From Gemmatimonadaceae bacterium (lineage in GTDB: Bacteria; Gemmatimonadota; Gemmatimonadetes; Gemmatimonadales; Gemmatimonadaceae), in the NCBI GenBank assembly GCA_036504815.1, contig DASXUN010000010.1:1-64000 (forward strand): a DNA stretch of 64,000 nucleotides. Direction: 5' to 3'. Position numbers and translations under genes: made by a program. Shown here piece after piece: positions 84-9,767 of this stretch (position 1 is its first letter; each line of letters opens with the position of its first letter). Under the pieces are notes generated by a model. It had not been told where the DNA came from. It was given only the letters and a program-made list of their open reading frames with translations, and did no database searches.

Positions 84-1592
<1,509 letters not shown>

Positions 1593-1660
1593 AGAGCGAG
1601 CGGTTGGTTGGTGGGGAGGCGGAAGGATGGCGGAGGACGGATCACGGCGAACGGCTGACG

Positions 1661-1709
1661 GATGGCAGATGGCAGATGGCGGATGGCAGATGGCGGATGG
1701 CGGATGGCA
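1661..1709. repeat. 7-bp minisatellite, seven GATGGCR units
   Basis: Seven uninterrupted 7-bp units GATGGCA or GATGGCG lie in the gap between the ArsR-methyltransferase gene and ahcY. A degenerate copy continues leftward in the same gap. Two units of the same type (GATGGCC, GATGGCG) occur at 24773-24786 after the rhodanese gene. The 7-bp unit is not a multiple of three, and I see no gene on it. It may alter spacing or mRNA structure between the two cistrons, or be neutral slippage DNA. Confidence 0.85.
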
Positions 1710-1730
1710 GAACGCGCTAGCGACACTGCG

Positions 1731-2705
1731 CTACGGCCTCTTCCTCCGCGCCGGACTTACCGGCGTGGTGAGCACGGCGACAAACAGCGACGGACCCTTG
1801 GCGCCGGGAACGGCCGGCAGCGGCTGCACGCGCGTGGCAGCGAAACCGGCTGCGCACGCCCACTGTGTGAGCTGGGCACCGTCCACGCCGAGCCAGAGGT
1901 GGCCCATCGTCTGGCGGTAATCCTCGTGCTCGTGCGGCAGCATGTCCACGATGAGCGCCTTGCCGCCAGGCCGCAACACGCGGTGCGCCTCGGCGAGTGC
2001 GGGTACCGGATCGGCCACGTAGGGCAGGACGAGCGAAAGCACCGCCACGTCCACCGATCGCGTGTCGAGCGGCAGCGCCTCGAGCGTGCCCGGGCGCACC
2101 TCGGCGTTTTCCACGGCGTGCAGCCGGGCGCGCGCCGCGCGCAGCATGGCCGAGGACTCGTCCACGCCGATGACGCGCTGCACGAACGGCGCGATCGCCT
2201 CGGCCAGCTGGCCCGTGCCGCAGCCCAGGTCGGCGACGGTCCACGAGGCGTCGAGCAGGCCCAGCAGCGCGTAGAGTTCGGGACGCGCGCCGAAGAGTTC
2301 GCTGCGCATGCGATCCCATTGCCCGGCCGCCGATGCGAAGAACTCCTGCGACTTCACGTGACGCCGCGAGAGCACCTCGTGGACACGCGCGAGGTCGCGC
2401 TGCGACGCCGGATGCCGCACCACCTCGTCGCGCACCGAATGCCACAGGCGGCGCGCCCCCGCGTCCAGCTCGCGTCCGGCCATCCGGTAGCGGTTGCTCG
2501 GCCCCGCCTCTCGCGACGCCACCCAGCCGGCGTCGGCGAGCACCTTGAGATGGCGGCTCACCGTGGACTGCGGGAGCTGCAGGACATCCTGCAGCTCGCC
2601 GACGGTCAGCTCGTGCCGCTCGAGACAGGCGAGCAGCCGCGCGCGGGTGGCGTCGGAAATGGCGGCGAGGCGGTCAAAGACCGCAGGCGTGTCGAGGGTA
2701 CTCAT
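1731..2705 (-). CDS. ArsR-family regulator fused to SAM-dependent methyltransferase
   Basis: A 324-residue fusion. Residues about 5-90 form an ArsR winged helix with recognition helix QSTVSRHLKVLADAGW (46-61). Residues about 150-320 form a class I methyltransferase with glycine motif ADLGCGTGQL (158-167). No metal-binding cysteine pair typical of metal-sensing ArsR proteins is seen, so the ligand is more likely SAM or SAH bound by the second domain (inference). ArsR-type SahR regulators of the SAM cycle are known, and the neighbour downstream is ahcY, which fits a methionine-cycle role. The ATG was chosen because a consensus promoter with an overlapping palindrome ends just before it; longer upstream reading runs through the GH16 gene on another frame. 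The transcript would be almost leaderless. Whether the second domain still methylates anything is unknown. Confidence 0.88.
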   Translation of the reverse strand: MSTLDTPAVFDRLAAISDATRARLLACLERHELTVGELQDVLQLPQSTVSRHLKVLADAGWVASREAGPSNRYRMAGRELDAGARRLWHSVRDEVVRHPASQRDLARVHEVLSRRHVKSQEFFASAAGQWDRMRSELFGARPELYALLGLLDASWTVADLGCGTGQLAEAIAPFVQRVIGVDESSAMLRAARARLHAVENAEVRPGTLEALPLDTRSVDVAVLSLVLPYVADPVPALAEAHRVLRPGGKALIVDMLPHEHEDYRQTMGHLWLGVDGAQLTQWACAAGFAATRVQPLPAVPGAKGPSLFVAVLTTPVSPARRKRP

Positions 2706-2710
2706 CCGTA

Positions 2711-2746
2711 TATCCGGATAATAGAATGGAAGCTGGGGCCCGTCAA
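2711..2746 (-). promoter_or_regulatory. Sigma-70-type promoter with palindromic operator for the ArsR-methyltransferase/ahcY unit
   Basis: On the minus strand, TTGACG (2746-2741), a 17-bp spacer and TATTAT (2723-2718) make a near-consensus sigma-70 promoter. A perfect 10-bp palindrome TATCCGGATA (2711-2720) overlaps the 3' half of the -10 box and the expected start site, 6 bp upstream of the ATG. This is the placement expected of an autorepressor operator; the regulator encoded next is the natural candidate ligand-responsive repressor. Binding is inferred. Confidence 0.7.
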
Positions 2747-3839: not shown

Positions 3840-4601
3840 GTGACCCCCTGGGTCCAGCGCCTGCTGATCGCCAACGTCGCCGCCTTCTTCGTGCAGCTGA
3901 CCGCACCGAGCCTGATGGAGCCGCTGGTCTTCGTCCCGATGCTCGTCTTCACGCATCCGTGGACGATCGTCACGTACATGTTCCTGCACGGCGGCTTCAC
4001 GCACCTGCTCTTCAACATGCTCGGGCTGTATTTCTTCGGCCCGCGCATCGAGGCGCGGCTCGGCGGCCAGCGCTTCCTCACGCTGTACTTCGTGGCGGGG
4101 ATCAGCGGCGCGCTCCTCTCGTTCGTCTTCGCGCCGTACGCCGGCGTCATTGGCGCGTCGGCCGGAATCTTCGGCATCATGCTCGCCTTCGCGCATTTCT
4201 GGCCGCGCGAGCAGATCTACATCTGGGGCATCCTCCCCCTCGAGGCGCGCTGGCTCGTGGTGATCACCACGGTGCTGGCCATCTGGAGCGGCATGGGCGG
4301 CTCGCGCAGCGGCGCCGCCGACTTCGCGCACCTCGGCGGCTACGCCGGCGCCTTCCTCTACCTGCGTTTCATCCGGTGGGGATCCGCCGCCGCGCGGTTC
4401 AAGAAGAAGGCCGAGGGCGCCGGCCGGGTGGTGGGCGCCATCGGCGATGTCCGCCGCGTCGACGTCTCCAAGGTCCACGAGGTCAACCGCGACGAGGTGA
4501 ACCGGATCCTCGACAAGATCAGCGCCACGGGGCTCGGCAGCCTCACCGATCAGGAACGCGTCTTCCTGTTGCACTTTGTCCCCATGGATGATAGGCAGTA
4601 A
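3840..4601 (+). CDS. Rhomboid family intramembrane serine protease
   Basis: A 253-residue polytopic inner-membrane protease that cleaves transmembrane helices. Catalytic serine lies in GASAG (S107) and catalytic histidine in DFAHLGGYAG (H164). The HGGFTHLLFNM block (about 50-60) supplies the conserved histidines and asparagine of the oxyanion region. About six hydrophobic helices are present. After the membrane core, a cytosolic tail ends in a helical domain (VNRDEVNRILDKISATGLGS) of the type often attached to bacterial rhomboids (DUF6576-like). GTG start supported by the strong GGAGGA site. Its stop codon runs directly into the first unit of the inverted tandem-repeat element, beyond which the cytochrome gene converges. 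Substrate unknown. Confidence 0.92.
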   Translation: MTPWVQRLLIANVAAFFVQLTAPSLMEPLVFVPMLVFTHPWTIVTYMFLHGGFTHLLFNMLGLYFFGPRIEARLGGQRFLTLYFVAGISGALLSFVFAPYAGVIGASAGIFGIMLAFAHFWPREQIYIWGILPLEARWLVVITTVLAIWSGMGGSRSGAADFAHLGGYAGAFLYLRFIRWGSAAARFKKKAEGAGRVVGAIGDVRRVDVSKVHEVNRDEVNRILDKISATGLGSLTDQERVFLLHFVPMDDRQ

Positions 4602-4770
4602 CGACAGAGTACGACGGAGTACGACAGAGTACGACAGAGTACGACAGAGGGGAGGATCCGCGTGCAGCGGTCCTCCCCTTTCGGCTGAGCACAGTGCGCT
4701 ACCGTGGTGCTCTGTGCCACTCTGTCGTACTCTGTCGTACTCTGTCGTACTCTGTCGTACTCTGTCGTAC
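4601..4770. repeat. Inverted tandem-repeat element of 10-bp units with GC-hairpin core
   Basis: Left arm: five 10-bp units ACGACAGAGT-like (4601-4650). Right arm: five exact units TCTGTCGTAC (4721-4770), the reverse complement of the left unit. Between them GGGGAGGA-CCGC (4649-4661, one bulged T) pairs with GCGG-TCCTCCCC (4667-4678) around a GTGCA loop and is followed by TTT, a typical intrinsic terminator shape. The element fills the whole space between the convergent rhomboid and cytochrome genes. The right arm ends 7 bp from the cytochrome stop. Not a CRISPR: no spacers and units only 10 bp. Confidence 0.93.
4649..4682 (+). terminator. Intrinsic terminator hairpin in the repeat core
   Basis: A 12-bp GC-rich stem with one bulged base and a 5-base loop, then TTT. 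It would end rhomboid transcription; read on the other strand it lacks a long U tract, but the surrounding repeat arms can also pair. Confidence 0.75.
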
Positions 4771-4777
4771 TCCGCCT

Positions 4778-7570
4778 CTAGGCGTACGAGAAAATCATCG
4801 CGTACAGGATCCCGATCACGATCAGCGTGCCGAGCGCCAGCGCGGTCCAGGCGAAGAAGCGAATCGCGCGGATCACGATGGGCTGGTAGGGCACCACGAG
4901 GTGTTCCTCCAGCTTGCCCGTGCGGACCAGCTCGGCGTACTCGTCCGGCTTGTCGTGCTCCAGCTCCTCCACCGTCATGCGCCCCGTGAAGACCACGAGG
5001 TCCATGGGGAACTTCTCCGGCCGCAGGTGCGTGTTGAAGAAGTGGATGGTGAAGATGAAGCCCGTGGCCAGGAGCGCCTCGTCGCTGTGCACGATCGTGG
5101 CGACGTTGATGAACCAGCCGGGGAGGAAGCGCGAGAAGAAGGTCGGGAACCAGAGCGTGAGCCCGGTGGAGCCGATGACGAAGATGCCCCAGAACACGGC
5201 GAAGTAGTCGAACTTCTCCCAGTAGGTCCACCGGCCGTACGCCGGCCGCTTGCCCTTGCCAAGGAACCACTTCACCGAGCCGATCAGCTCCATGAGGTCG
5301 CGCTTGTTGAACATCATCGACCCGGGGCCGAGCACCAGGTCCTTCCAGCTCGTGCCATCGCGCTGCTTGCGCTTCACGAGGTCGACCAGGTGCGTCACGA
5401 AGACGATCACCATGATCACCGCCGCGAAGCGATGGATGAAGCCCGCCGACTCGAAGCCGCCCAGCGTGCGCGACACGAACGCCGCCCACTGGGTGTACGA
5501 GAACTTCAGGGTCATGCCGGTGAGCGCCAGGCTGATGAAGCTGACGATCATCGCAATGTGCAGCATGCGGTTGAGCCGCGAGAACCGCTCGTATTCGAGT
5601 TCGCCTTCCTGGGCCGCCGGATGCCGCCCGAACTCCTGGCGCATCTTGAGCGCGCGCGGCAGCCACATGAGCGTGTGCGCGCCGCCGACGGTGAAGGTGA
5701 CGACCAGCAGCGAGGTCATCCCCCAGAAGACCCAGAAGAGCACCGGGTACTTGTGGAGGTCGTGGTGCGTGACGTGGGTCAGGTAGCCGGCGAAGCGCCG
5801 GTTGGCGCCCGCGTGGCACTTCTGGCACGTCTGCACCACGTTCTGCCGGCTGAGCTTCGACCGCACGTCGTCCACGCGCAGGATGTCGTGCGAGCCGTGG
5901 CAGTCGTAGCACTGCGCCGTCTTGGTGTAGCCCAGCCGCGAGACCTTGCCGTGGTACGTCTCGAAGTACGACTCGGTGATGTCCTTATGGCAGGTGCCGC
6001 ACTGCCCCATGATCTTGAGCTTGAACCCTTCGGCGTCGGTGCGCCCGATGGTGTGCGCCGAGTGGCAATCCTCGCAGACGGGGAGCTTCTGGTCGGTCTT
6101 GGTGACCAGTTCCGAGTGCACGCTGCGGGCGAACTGCTTGGCGATCCCCTCGTGGCAGCGTCCGCAGGTCTGCGGCAGGTTGTGGCGGTTGACGCTCGAA
6201 GTGGTGCTGTCGTGCGGGAGCACGCTGTGCGCGGTGTGGCAGCTGGTGCACGTCGCGGTGACGACGAGCCCGCTCTCCAGCAGCCCCTTGCCGTGGATGC
6301 TCTCGGCGTAGTTCTCGATGATCTGCTTTTCCGCGCCCCGGTAGTGGAGCGCGGCCTTCTGTCCGGTGCGGTGGCACTGGCCGCAGAGCGTCGGGATCTG
6401 GGTCGGGAAGATGGGCGACTGCGGGTTGGCCTTGCCCAGCACGCCGTGCGTGCCGTGGCACTGCTTGCACGATGGCCCGTTCGGGTCCTTCCGGGCCTCG
6501 AGCTGGCCGTGCGTGCTGACGCGGTAGAGGTCGCCGACCTCGGCGTGGCACGACGCGCAGTTGACCTTCGCGGTGATCGTCTCGCAGGGGCGCAGGCGCG
6601 AGGGCGAGACGCCGGTGTGGCACTGGCTGCAGCGGATCTTGTTGTGGATCGAGTTGGACAGCGAATCGAGCTTGACGCGCAGGGTGCGCCCGTCCTTGGA
6701 CGCCCGGATCCCCTCCTGCTCATGGCACCGCAGGCAGTCGCGGTCGGCCATCCCCTGGTCGTAGAAGACGCGGCGGGCCTTGTGCGGCTCGTGGCAGTCC
6801 ACGCAGGCCGGCAGGACGTGCCGCTCGCGCTCCCAGAGCCTGCCTTCGATGATCTTGCGGTGCACGTTCTCGATCGCGGCGTGGCAGGTGGAGCAGGTGG
6901 CCGCGATGTTGGCGCGCGCAATGGACGACTTCGGGTCGGTGTGCTTGCGGATCGAGTGCGCCGTGTGGCACGAGACGCACGTCGCGGCGACGGTGAGTCC
7001 CTTCGTCATCAGGGCCTCGCCGTGGATCGACTCCGTGTAGTTGTTGATGATGTTCGACTGGTGGATCGTGCGTTCCTTCTGCACGCGCCCGCCCTCGGAG
7101 TGGCACCGCCCGCACAGGTACGGGATGCGCGACGGCTGCACCGGCGACCGCGGGTCGCTGCGCCGCACCATCTCGTGGTTGCCGTGGCAGCTGCTGCACT
7201 TCGGCGCCAGCGGGTCGCCGCGCGCGATGGCCTTGCCGTGCAGCGACCCGTCGTGCTGCACCTGCTCCGCTTCGTGGCAGCTGCGGCACTGGGCCGGCTT
7301 CAGCGTCTCGTCGTGGGGGAGTTCCTTCCCCTTGAGGTCGGCGTGGCAGTCGGTGCAGCTCGTCTTGCCGTGCACCGAGCCCTTGAACTTCGTCTCGTCC
7401 ACGAAGAGCGACACCGTCCGGCCGTCGCGCTTCTTGGTGAGCCCCTTGTCGTTGTGGCAGGAGAGGCAGTCGTCGTTCCCCTGCGCCAGCGCCCGCGTGC
7501 CGCCCCCCGCGAGCAGGAGCAGCGCGCATGCGAGCAGGCCGGCGCGGAGCGCGGCCCTCAGTCTGGTCAT
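4778..7570 (-). CDS. Nineteen-haem cytochrome c fused to a cytochrome b561-like membrane domain
   Basis: A 930-residue protein with a signal peptide (about 1-30), then 19 CXXCH motifs between residues 35 and 588, then a membrane part (about 608-925) with five or more helices and histidines suited to b-type haems. In topology it resembles Geobacter CbcL, where a periplasmic multihaem c domain is fused to a di-haem b membrane domain that exchanges electrons with the quinone pool. The role in quinol oxidation or reduction is inferred. Residues about 125-230 and 368-473 are an obvious internal duplication (shared pattern CHG..H, P.IP.LCG.CH, NY.ESIHG, ATC.SCHTAHS). It is the last gene of a three-gene operon, 31 bp after the 13-haem paralogue, and ends at the repeat element. 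Electron partner and acceptor are not shown by the sequence. Confidence 0.9.
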   Translation of the reverse strand: MTRLRAALRAGLLACALLLLAGGGTRALAQGNDDCLSCHNDKGLTKKRDGRTVSLFVDETKFKGSVHGKTSCTDCHADLKGKELPHDETLKPAQCRSCHEAEQVQHDGSLHGKAIARGDPLAPKCSSCHGNHEMVRRSDPRSPVQPSRIPYLCGRCHSEGGRVQKERTIHQSNIINNYTESIHGEALMTKGLTVAATCVSCHTAHSIRKHTDPKSSIARANIAATCSTCHAAIENVHRKIIEGRLWERERHVLPACVDCHEPHKARRVFYDQGMADRDCLRCHEQEGIRASKDGRTLRVKLDSLSNSIHNKIRCSQCHTGVSPSRLRPCETITAKVNCASCHAEVGDLYRVSTHGQLEARKDPNGPSCKQCHGTHGVLGKANPQSPIFPTQIPTLCGQCHRTGQKAALHYRGAEKQIIENYAESIHGKGLLESGLVVTATCTSCHTAHSVLPHDSTTSSVNRHNLPQTCGRCHEGIAKQFARSVHSELVTKTDQKLPVCEDCHSAHTIGRTDAEGFKLKIMGQCGTCHKDITESYFETYHGKVSRLGYTKTAQCYDCHGSHDILRVDDVRSKLSRQNVVQTCQKCHAGANRRFAGYLTHVTHHDLHKYPVLFWVFWGMTSLLVVTFTVGGAHTLMWLPRALKMRQEFGRHPAAQEGELEYERFSRLNRMLHIAMIVSFISLALTGMTLKFSYTQWAAFVSRTLGGFESAGFIHRFAAVIMVIVFVTHLVDLVKRKQRDGTSWKDLVLGPGSMMFNKRDLMELIGSVKWFLGKGKRPAYGRWTYWEKFDYFAVFWGIFVIGSTGLTLWFPTFFSRFLPGWFINVATIVHSDEALLATGFIFTIHFFNTHLRPEKFPMDLVVFTGRMTVEELEHDKPDEYAELVRTGKLEEHLVVPYQPIVIRAIRFFAWTALALGTLIVIGILYAMIFSYA

Positions 7571-7601: not shown

Positions 7602-9767
7602 CTACGCGGGCTTCACGCCCGGTTCGTCATCATCCTCGTCCTCGACGGCCTGGGCGCGGAGCTGCGAGAGCTCCAGCGGGTGCTCGTCGAGCATCTCGCG
7701 CTCGGTGAGCGTCCCCTTCCAGAACGCGAGGTTGATGGGATAGATGTCGGGGTTGAAGATCACGAAGTAGATGTGCCAGACGAGGATGGCGAGCGTCGCC
7801 AGCCACGCTTCGTAGTAGTGCACCGTGCGGGCAATGTCCCAGCCGAGCTTGGTCAGCAGGTTCATGAACGTGTTGTCGAACCACAGGATGATGCCCGTGG
7901 CGCCCATCACGATGTTGCCCCACACCAGCGCCCAGTACTCGCTCTTCTCGATGTAGCTGAAGCGCCCGAACTTTGGCCGCACCGACGACCAGCCCAGGTT
8001 GTACTTCACCATGTCGATGGCGTCGAACAGGTCCTGCGGCACCGGGAACAGGTCCTTGACCAGCTGCCGGCCGCGCGGGACGAAGGCGAGGTAGTACACG
8101 TGGTAGACGCTCGCCACCAGCATGATCACGCCGGCGATGCGGTGCACCAGGCTGCGCAGGTCGAAGACGCCCGGGAGGTTCCGGTGCAGCGGCGCCACCC
8201 ACCACGCCTCGGGGAACTTGAGCGCGAAGCCGGTGATCACCAGCGTGACGAAGCTGATGACCAGCGTGGCATGCTGCAGCCGCTCGTTGAGCGACATGCG
8301 CAGGTACAGCGTGTGGCCGCCATGCTCGGCGTCAATCAGCCCGCGGCGCACCTTGAGGTTGTGCTTCGACTTCTTGATGAAGTCGAGCAGGTTGTGCACC
8401 AGCATGCCGCCGATGATCAGCGCGATGAGGATGATGTAGCCCATCGCCACCCAGTACAGGATCGGTTCCTGCTCCTGGGTGAGCGTGATGTGCACCGAGC
8501 CCTGCGCAAAGCGCTCGCTCGCGCCCGGATGGCACCGGCCGCACGTGACCTTGAGGTTCGCCTTGCTGACGCGCGACGTCGAATCGGAGGACGGCTTGAT
8601 GTCGTGTCCGCCGTGGCAGCTGGCGCAGTTGGCGACCGAGAGCGAGCCGCCGCGGCTCGCGAGTCCGTGGTAGCTGTCGGTGAACGTCTTGAAGCGATCG
8701 CTGCGCAGCCCGTACTTGGCCGAGAGCGCGACCGACGCGTGGCAGGGCTGGCAGACCTGCGCCGAGACGTTGGTGGGCGCCGTGCGCGACTTGGGATCCT
8801 TCTTGCCGAGGATCGTGTGCTCGCCATGGCACGAGGTGCAGACCGGGGAGTCGTCGTTCCCCTTGGCCGCCTCGACCCCGTGCACGCTCGTCTTGTAGAC
8901 CGCGGCGATCTGCGTATGGCACTTGCCGCAGGTGTTCGGGATGTTCTGGCGGGCCACGAACGACGAGTTGTCGGAGCCGCGCTTCATGTCGTGGCTGCCG
9001 TGGCAGCTCACGCAGTTCGCGGCGTCGGCCATCCCCCTCTTCTCGAGCGCCTGGCCGTGCACGCTGTTGTCGTAGCCCGCGATGAAGCCGGCCGTCGGCG
9101 AGGTGCGCGCCCGCACGTCCGCGTTGTCGAGATGGCAGCCGAAGCAGAGCTTGTTCTGGTTCAGCTTCACCGTGAGCGAATCGGCGCTTCCGAAGACAAA
9201 GCCGACGCCGCGATGGCAGGTGAGGCAAGTCGGGGCGCCCTTGACGCCCTTCGCCAGGGCCTGGCCGTGCGCCGACGACGGGAAGTGCTCCGCCGCCTTC
9301 TGGTGGCACTGCCCGCAGTCCTGCGTCAGGCGCTCCCGGGAGAAGGGGGCGCCGGGCGTCTTCGGCGAGGCGACGTTGTGCCGGCCGTGGCAGGTCTGGC
9401 AGAGGGTCTTGGGCAGCTTCCCCTGCGAGACGGCCCGGTTGAGCTCGGGATGGAACGGGTGCTTGAGCGCCGCCTTGCCGTGGCAGCGCGCGCAGTTGAC
9501 CGGCGTGATCTCGGCCTTGTGCGGCAGCTCCTCGGGGTTGAACCCGACGTGGCAGGAGACGCAGGCGAGCTTCTCGTGCGTGGACTTGTTGAGGATCTTC
9601 TCGTCCACGAACAGCGAGATCGTCTTCTTGTTCGCGCCCTCTTTGGTGAGGGTCTTGTCGTTATGACACTGCAGGCAGTCCTCGCGCGTCTGCGCGAGGG
9701 CTGCCTGGGCACCCAGTTGAGTGAAGGTTCCGAGCACGAGGAACAGGACAAACAGACGGCGAATCAT
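7602..9767 (-). CDS. Thirteen-haem cytochrome c fused to a cytochrome b561-like membrane domain
   Basis: A 721-residue paralogue of the 930-residue neighbour. Signal peptide about 1-26, thirteen CXXCH motifs from residue 31 to about 413, then a helical membrane domain (about 436-675) with conserved histidines (LQHATLVISF, LVHRIAGVIML, VWHIYFVIF) suited to b-haem ligation, and an acidic C-terminal tail (VEDEDDDE). The two proteins share the N-terminal pattern DCLxCHNDKxLTK and SLFVDE and the membrane region WA..WG..V.G.TG..LWF, so one arose from the other with gain or loss of haem modules. Co-directional with the tetrahaem gene upstream (49-bp gap). Probably a membrane quinone:cytochrome oxidoreductase (inference). 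Confidence 0.9.
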   Translation of the reverse strand: MIRRLFVLFLVLGTFTQLGAQAALAQTREDCLQCHNDKTLTKEGANKKTISLFVDEKILNKSTHEKLACVSCHVGFNPEELPHKAEITPVNCARCHGKAALKHPFHPELNRAVSQGKLPKTLCQTCHGRHNVASPKTPGAPFSRERLTQDCGQCHQKAAEHFPSSAHGQALAKGVKGAPTCLTCHRGVGFVFGSADSLTVKLNQNKLCFGCHLDNADVRARTSPTAGFIAGYDNSVHGQALEKRGMADAANCVSCHGSHDMKRGSDNSSFVARQNIPNTCGKCHTQIAAVYKTSVHGVEAAKGNDDSPVCTSCHGEHTILGKKDPKSRTAPTNVSAQVCQPCHASVALSAKYGLRSDRFKTFTDSYHGLASRGGSLSVANCASCHGGHDIKPSSDSTSRVSKANLKVTCGRCHPGASERFAQGSVHITLTQEQEPILYWVAMGYIILIALIIGGMLVHNLLDFIKKSKHNLKVRRGLIDAEHGGHTLYLRMSLNERLQHATLVISFVTLVITGFALKFPEAWWVAPLHRNLPGVFDLRSLVHRIAGVIMLVASVYHVYYLAFVPRGRQLVKDLFPVPQDLFDAIDMVKYNLGWSSVRPKFGRFSYIEKSEYWALVWGNIVMGATGIILWFDNTFMNLLTKLGWDIARTVHYYEAWLATLAILVWHIYFVIFNPDIYPINLAFWKGTLTEREMLDEHPLELSQLRAQAVEDEDDDEPGVKPA

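Follow-up and report, generated by a model that had tools for sequence, protein, structure and literature searches.

A putative SahR-type repressor and its conserved operator at the ahcY locus of Gemmatimonadota

Introduction

The SahR regulator was reportedly described in Proteobacteria by Novichkov et al. in 2014. Passages of PMC4239095 describe SahR as a SAH-responsive regulator of the ArsR family, whose core targets are sahR, ahcY, metH, metF, and metK, and whose operator is a 20-bp palindrome, with autoregulation predicted. In the same passages, SamR of the Xanthomonadales is presented as a distant SahR homologue with a 24-bp palindrome; its effector was left undetermined by the authors, metK is the sole SAM-cycle gene in its regulons, and ATC-10 nt-GAT is common to the SamR and gamma-SahR motifs. 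Passages of PMC8877191 also describe SahR as SAH-responsive, and give a length of 1023 bp for the sahR gene of Ensifer aridi. A further relative is ArsRM of Brevundimonas sp. M20, which, according to passages of PMC10190100, is encoded at the head of a met operon, bound its own promoter in a gel shift assay, and had an activity on arsenite in a kit assay. In our literature search, which was not exhaustive and was partly swamped by words starting with "sahr", nothing was found joining SahR and Gemmatimonadota, nor anything on Gemmatimonad- together with SAM-II. Here, we compare these systems with a locus from a Gemmatimonadaceae bacterium (assembly GCA_036504815.1), located in a stretch of 64,000 nucleotides from contig DASXUN010000010.1, hereafter called the window.

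Results

The regulator gene of the window (positions 1731-2705, minus strand, with its ATG at 2705-2703) encodes a SahR-like protein of 324 aa composed of an ArsR-type winged helix and a class I methyltransferase domain. The helix-turn-helix spans codons 17-62 (2520-2657, minus strand; PF12840 at 17-60 and PF01022 at 18-62), and PF01022, PF12840, and NF033788 all scored above their cut-offs, while none of the NCBIfam equivalog models exceeded its own cut-off. The methyltransferase fold (Methyltransf_11/25) was found by profile match at codons 157-252 (1950-2237, minus strand), with an E-value of 7.4e-23 for PF08241. It contains the SAM/SAH-binding motif I, DLGCGTG, at codons 159-165 (2211-2231, minus strand), whose residues D159, G161, G163, and G165 are conserved in 62/62 fusions of Gemmatimonadales and in 6/6 other fusions; in the fusion alignment, motif I and a DxxPH..H..G stretch are retained across phyla. 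We built an AlphaFold2 model from a 16-row alignment (pLDDT 88.2, pTM 0.69), in which a winged helix (about residues 6-75) is followed by a pair of long helices (82-138) and, starting near residue 142, by a methyltransferase of the Rossmann type. This second domain aligned with solved methyltransferases over about 200 residues (116-320), with VIA-align Z scores of up to 22.8. The pocket of the regulator may bind SAM or SAH in the source organism, and by analogy with its family the protein would be a dimer.

A consensus scan of positions 1500-2900 gave a single promoter-like site (shuffle mean 0.1), TTGACG-N17-TATTAT at 2746-2718 on the minus strand, with the -35 element at 2741-2746 and the -10 element at 2718-2723, and none before ahcY. 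The first-pass annotation had placed this promoter before an ArsR-methyltransferase fusion with ahcY as the next gene, and all of these parts were found on the minus strand. It had also placed a palindrome, TATCCGGATA, over the -10 and start region. This palindrome is present as one exact copy in the whole window (2711-2720, with no strand assigned), but it is the inner part of the conserved element, which is a larger, 16-bp dyad, ATCCGGATATACGGAT, at 2719-2704 on the minus strand, reaching up to 24 bp with its flanks in relatives. The dyad runs into the ATG and thus spans the last part of the -10 element, the predicted start site, and the ATG up to its second base. Its geometry in the window is ATC-CGGATATACG-GAT, that is, ATC-N10-GAT. 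The leader of only a few bases that had been expected agrees with a predicted length of about 6 nt, if transcription starts 7 nt past the -10 element. An Rfam search before the regulator and ahcY gave no SAH riboswitch and no other credible match; mir-641, on a tandem-repeat hairpin, and snoU82P were the sole matches at E<1, and both were judged false.

The second gene of the presumed operon, ahcY (84-1592, minus strand), encodes S-adenosylhomocysteine hydrolase, and scored 607 bits against TIGR00936 (cut-off 498). The gap between the two genes (1593-1730, minus strand) is 138 nt long, and its scan gave no promoter-like or terminator-like site; across 62 loci the gap length varies from 8 to 259 nt. 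GATGGCA tandem repeats lie in this gap at 1659-1711. Intergenic short tandem repeats were also observed at 25-83, 4601-4649, and 4719-4772, the four arrays having periods of 11, 7, 10, and 10 in the order of their positions. The last two are mutually inverted, with about 70 bases between them, and might fold into a long hairpin behind a rhomboid-like gene. Further along the minus strand, adjacent genes at 4778-7570 and 7602-9767 encode long multihaem proteins that resemble cytochromes, are rich in CxxCH, and have membrane parts.

The fusion is present in 169 of the 288 genomes of the order (E<=1e-20). We analyzed 62 loci from these 169 genomes, namely the 30 best matches and 32 spread over genera, and found that ahcY adjoins the fusion downstream in 62/62 loci. 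The best ATCCG-N6-CGGAT core between -70 and +25 of the ATG matched at 10/10 positions in 47 loci, 9/10 in 13, and 8/10 in 2. The dyad, whose absence from relatives keeping the fusion and ahcY had been named as a refuting observation, stands there at no fewer than 9/10 positions in 60/62 loci, compared with 63/6200 dinucleotide shuffles and 3/496 coding windows. One of the two poor sites (L101) has an 8/10 core, and the other (L083) has a 9/10 site nearer the aligned start, its poor score probably being due to a start codon wrongly chosen by the script. The operator overlaps the ATG in 38/62 loci. An 18-bp form, CATCCGNATATNCGGATG, occurred with at most one mismatch in 83/288 genomes of the order, and the reversed control pattern in 3/288. 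Covariation of the operator flanks was modest: of four pairs, one was clear (23 seen, 14.8 expected, 0/2000 shuffles) and a second was weak (p 0.028); no palindromy was seen in the six bases at the centre. In several genera, a second half-site stands on the opposite side of the ATCCGGAT core, so that ATCC/GGAT units at a distance of eight bases are a possible reading of the operator.

Among the same-genus loci, TTGAC or TTGCC followed by N17 and TATTAT or TATAAT was found in 9/9, and the -10 element ends 12 nt before the ATG in all nine, while the letters of the spacer vary. Hexamers, a 17-base spacing, and a 12-base distance that are kept while the spacer drifts point to a real promoter, whose leader in this genus would be very short. 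The -10 element of other genera is weaker, and the predicted leader there is about 10-20 nt. Taken with the conservation of dyad and gene order, a putative autoregulated promoter driving the regulator and ahcY, as the first-pass annotation had proposed, is well supported.

To compare the fusion with those of other phyla, we located the Sinorhizobium meliloti gene by tblastn. It is 1023 nt long and lies upstream of metF. The E. aridi sahR primers B and C matched the ends of this gene (one mismatch and exact, respectively); for primers A and D on S. meliloti, A gave only an unrelated 3-mismatch match and D none. The best match of the S. meliloti fusion in the source genome was the window gene (5.5e-39; the next, 2.7e-9). 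By these matches with S. meliloti, the window gene appears orthologous to the fusion at the rhizobial sahR locus. The window regulator is 32-38% identical to the proteobacterial fusions. Among alphaproteobacteria, the fusion precedes metF in 11/13 loci, and a 20-bp palindrome (at least 16/20 positions) was found in 13/13. In Leptospira interrogans, a perfect 24-bp palindrome precedes the fusion, ahcY, a 4Fe-4S ferredoxin-like gene, and metH, which stand one after another, and in a Latescibacterota MAG ATCCGGATGGACGGAT is followed by the fusion and ahcY. A Phycisphaeraceae fusion with 48% identity lies directly behind another reading frame, and neither operator nor ahcY was seen on its short contig. 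In a tree of Gemmatimonadota, Latescibacterota, Phycisphaeraceae, alphaproteobacterial, and Leptospira rows, the first three formed a group (99/96), separate from the alphaproteobacterial rows (100/100), which contain the Brevundimonas relative; Leptospira forms a long branch. Given the identity of 32-38% and the separate group, the effector could have changed.

We searched the source genome for further copies of the dyad, as it had been expected before other methionine-cycle genes. This expectation failed at the sites examined in the source genome and held in relatives, where the dyad precedes metF and metH. The source genome has the dyad at no other methionine gene among the listed matches and metH; matches with 3 mismatches were likewise judged among those listed. 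Exact or near dyads at C6:33813, C12:11460, C4:141611/141619, C21:322076, and C23:868 were rejected because each falls within a reading frame with another function. So was the intergenic dyad at C19:3049, which precedes a putative secreted protein and no methionine gene. This copy, with 1 mismatch, lies between that gene and a sensor-kinase-like gene, with no methionine link seen. A metF query gave no match in the source genome at 1e-50, and no dyad stands up to 400 bases from metH on contig C30, where the closest match is 8/10. The metH leader (G000:C30:245911-245984) is SAM-II-like with 29.7 bits, and the metY leader (G000:C3:29207-29280) with 32.4 bits, both below the gathering score of 36.

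For metF, we fetched 30 loci (L123-L152) of the 40 genomes with that metF, and found the dyad core before metF in 29/30. Close before metH, the core stands in 3/30. A further 9/10 match at -217 of metH seems to belong to the coding region of the preceding gene, and additional dyads in L110, L112, L113, L114, and L115 (five of the eight examined) were rejected as lying inside coding sequence or having no methionine neighbour. The Rfam SAM-II element (SAM_alpha, RF00521) scored above the gathering score in 27/30 metF loci, and in 26 of these 27 it begins 13-18 bases after the end of the dyad. Across the family, SAM-II was found in 164/178 genomes at E<=0.001, and above the cut-off in 144. In many of these loci the layout is TTGCC-ATCCGTTCATCCGGAT-GATAGAAT with SAM-II at about +1, which means that the operator fills the spacer between -35 and -10.

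Discussion

The regulatory unit described here is real and well conserved, and is of a known kind in another phylum. The fusion, its promoter, the dyad, and the gene order recur across genera, and the same dyad stands at metF and metH in relatives. On comparison of these features with the published systems, the window gene is probably the SahR of Gemmatimonadota, a SAH-responsive ArsR-type repressor of sahR-ahcY. It shares with SahR the placement in the ArsR family as a SAM-cycle regulator, a regulon of sahR, ahcY, metH, and metF, a palindromic operator, and predicted autoregulation, and has the fusion architecture found at the rhizobial sahR locus. The operator stands before its own gene and ahcY, and in relatives before metF and metH, at the frequencies given above (60/62, 29/30, and 3/30). 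The palindrome is about 20 bp long and shows the ATC-10 nt-GAT pattern, as expected for SahR, but its letters differ from the alphaproteobacterial motif: ATCCG-N6-CGGAT in the window against the A/T-rich ATATAAAGATATCTTTATAT type. The source genome also differs from the SahR systems in having no target found beyond the own operon.

We propose that the regulator acts as a dimeric repressor of the ArsR type, with the domain of methyltransferase fold as its ligand pocket. At low SAH, it would occupy the dyad, which covers the -10 and start region, and keep the sahR-ahcY transcript off. Accumulating SAH, which is inhibitory and arises from methylation, would fill the pocket, and the regulator would leave the DNA; AhcY would then be made, SAH hydrolysed, and repression restored. 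Repression rather than activation is suggested by the position of the operator, and SAH as the effector by the published relative SahR together with ahcY as the constant target.

The first-pass annotation had suggested that the fusion may sense the ratio of SAM to SAH. Ratio sensing by the fusion protein itself is not supported, and the published relative SahR is SAH-responsive in the passages of PMC4239095 and PMC8877191. A SamR-like regulator, whose pocket would respond to SAM as a co-repressor or to the ratio rather than to SAH, nevertheless has several points in its favour: the pocket has the canonical form of a class I site for SAM/SAH, binding of both ligands is common among methyltransferases, and SamR, as a distant SahR homologue, has a similar ATC-N10-GAT operator (passages of PMC4239095). 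We consider it unlikely, as SAH-consuming ahcY is the one constant target in 62/62 loci, whereas SamR regulons lack ahcY and, in the passages of PMC4239095, hold no SAM-cycle gene except metK. Moreover, SAM already has readers of its own in the SAM-II-like leaders, which stand before metH and metY in the source genome and before metF in relatives.

Another reading is that the regulator is bifunctional, at once an ArsR and an arsenite methyltransferase, which is the claim made for ArsRM of Brevundimonas. Both are ArsR-methyltransferase fusions, ArsRM heads a methionine operon and has a gel shift with its own promoter and arsenite activity reported for it (passages of PMC10190100), and a Brevundimonas relative is among the alphaproteobacterial rows of our tree. 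The neighbours of ArsRM are metF and metH, not ahcY, and the residues claimed for arsenite are not conserved in Gemmatimonadales: outside motif I no cysteine is conserved (C at 27 in 9/62 loci; 284 not conserved), which makes arsenic unlikely as a conserved role, and the cysteine within motif I, C162, is replaced by T in 5/6 fusions from outside the order. The score with the arsenite methyltransferase model was 61 bits (cut-off 263), and the neighbour in the window is ahcY, with no ars genes, so we regard this reading as very improbable. These observations suggest that arsenite methylation by met-operon ArsR-methyltransferase fusions deserves to be tested again with SAH. A metal-sensing ArsR/SmtB repressor lying beside ahcY by chance has in its favour that the regulator passed NF033788 ("metalloregulator ArsR/SmtB family") with 65 bits against 55, but this name is family-wide. 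We find this reading hardly credible, since no cysteine ligands are conserved (cysteines being the residues examined), the protein carries a fused domain, and the targets belong to the methionine cycle.

With SahR as the preferred identity of the regulator, the metF loci suggest how the ratio might be read. We lean towards a two-input switch on one metF(-metH) transcript in two genera of the family, in which SahR in the -35/-10 spacer would read SAH at initiation and the SAM-II leader would read SAM, so that the SAM/SAH ratio would be read by the promoter and leader as a pair and not by the fusion alone; the genus of the window may have split the inputs, with SahR on ahcY and SAM-II-like elements on metH and metY. 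SAM-II is an RNA sensor of SAM, distinct from the protein and complementary to it. The pairing of SahR with SAM_alpha has a precedent in the hom-metXC operon of Oceanicaulis alexandrii, which is under both according to passages of PMC4239095. Beyond this precedent, the pairing is systematic in two genera and occurs at metF.

The switch type itself is ordinary; the new details are the conserved DNA site and the operator-riboswitch pairing in relatives. The finding would extend a proteobacterial family of SAH-sensing repressors, with its operator and targets, to Gemmatimonadota and to a Latescibacterota genome. The operator logo marks SAM-cycle promoters in a phylum with few assigned regulators, and the tandem of operator and SAM-II at metF makes the separate reading of SAM and SAH on one promoter directly testable.
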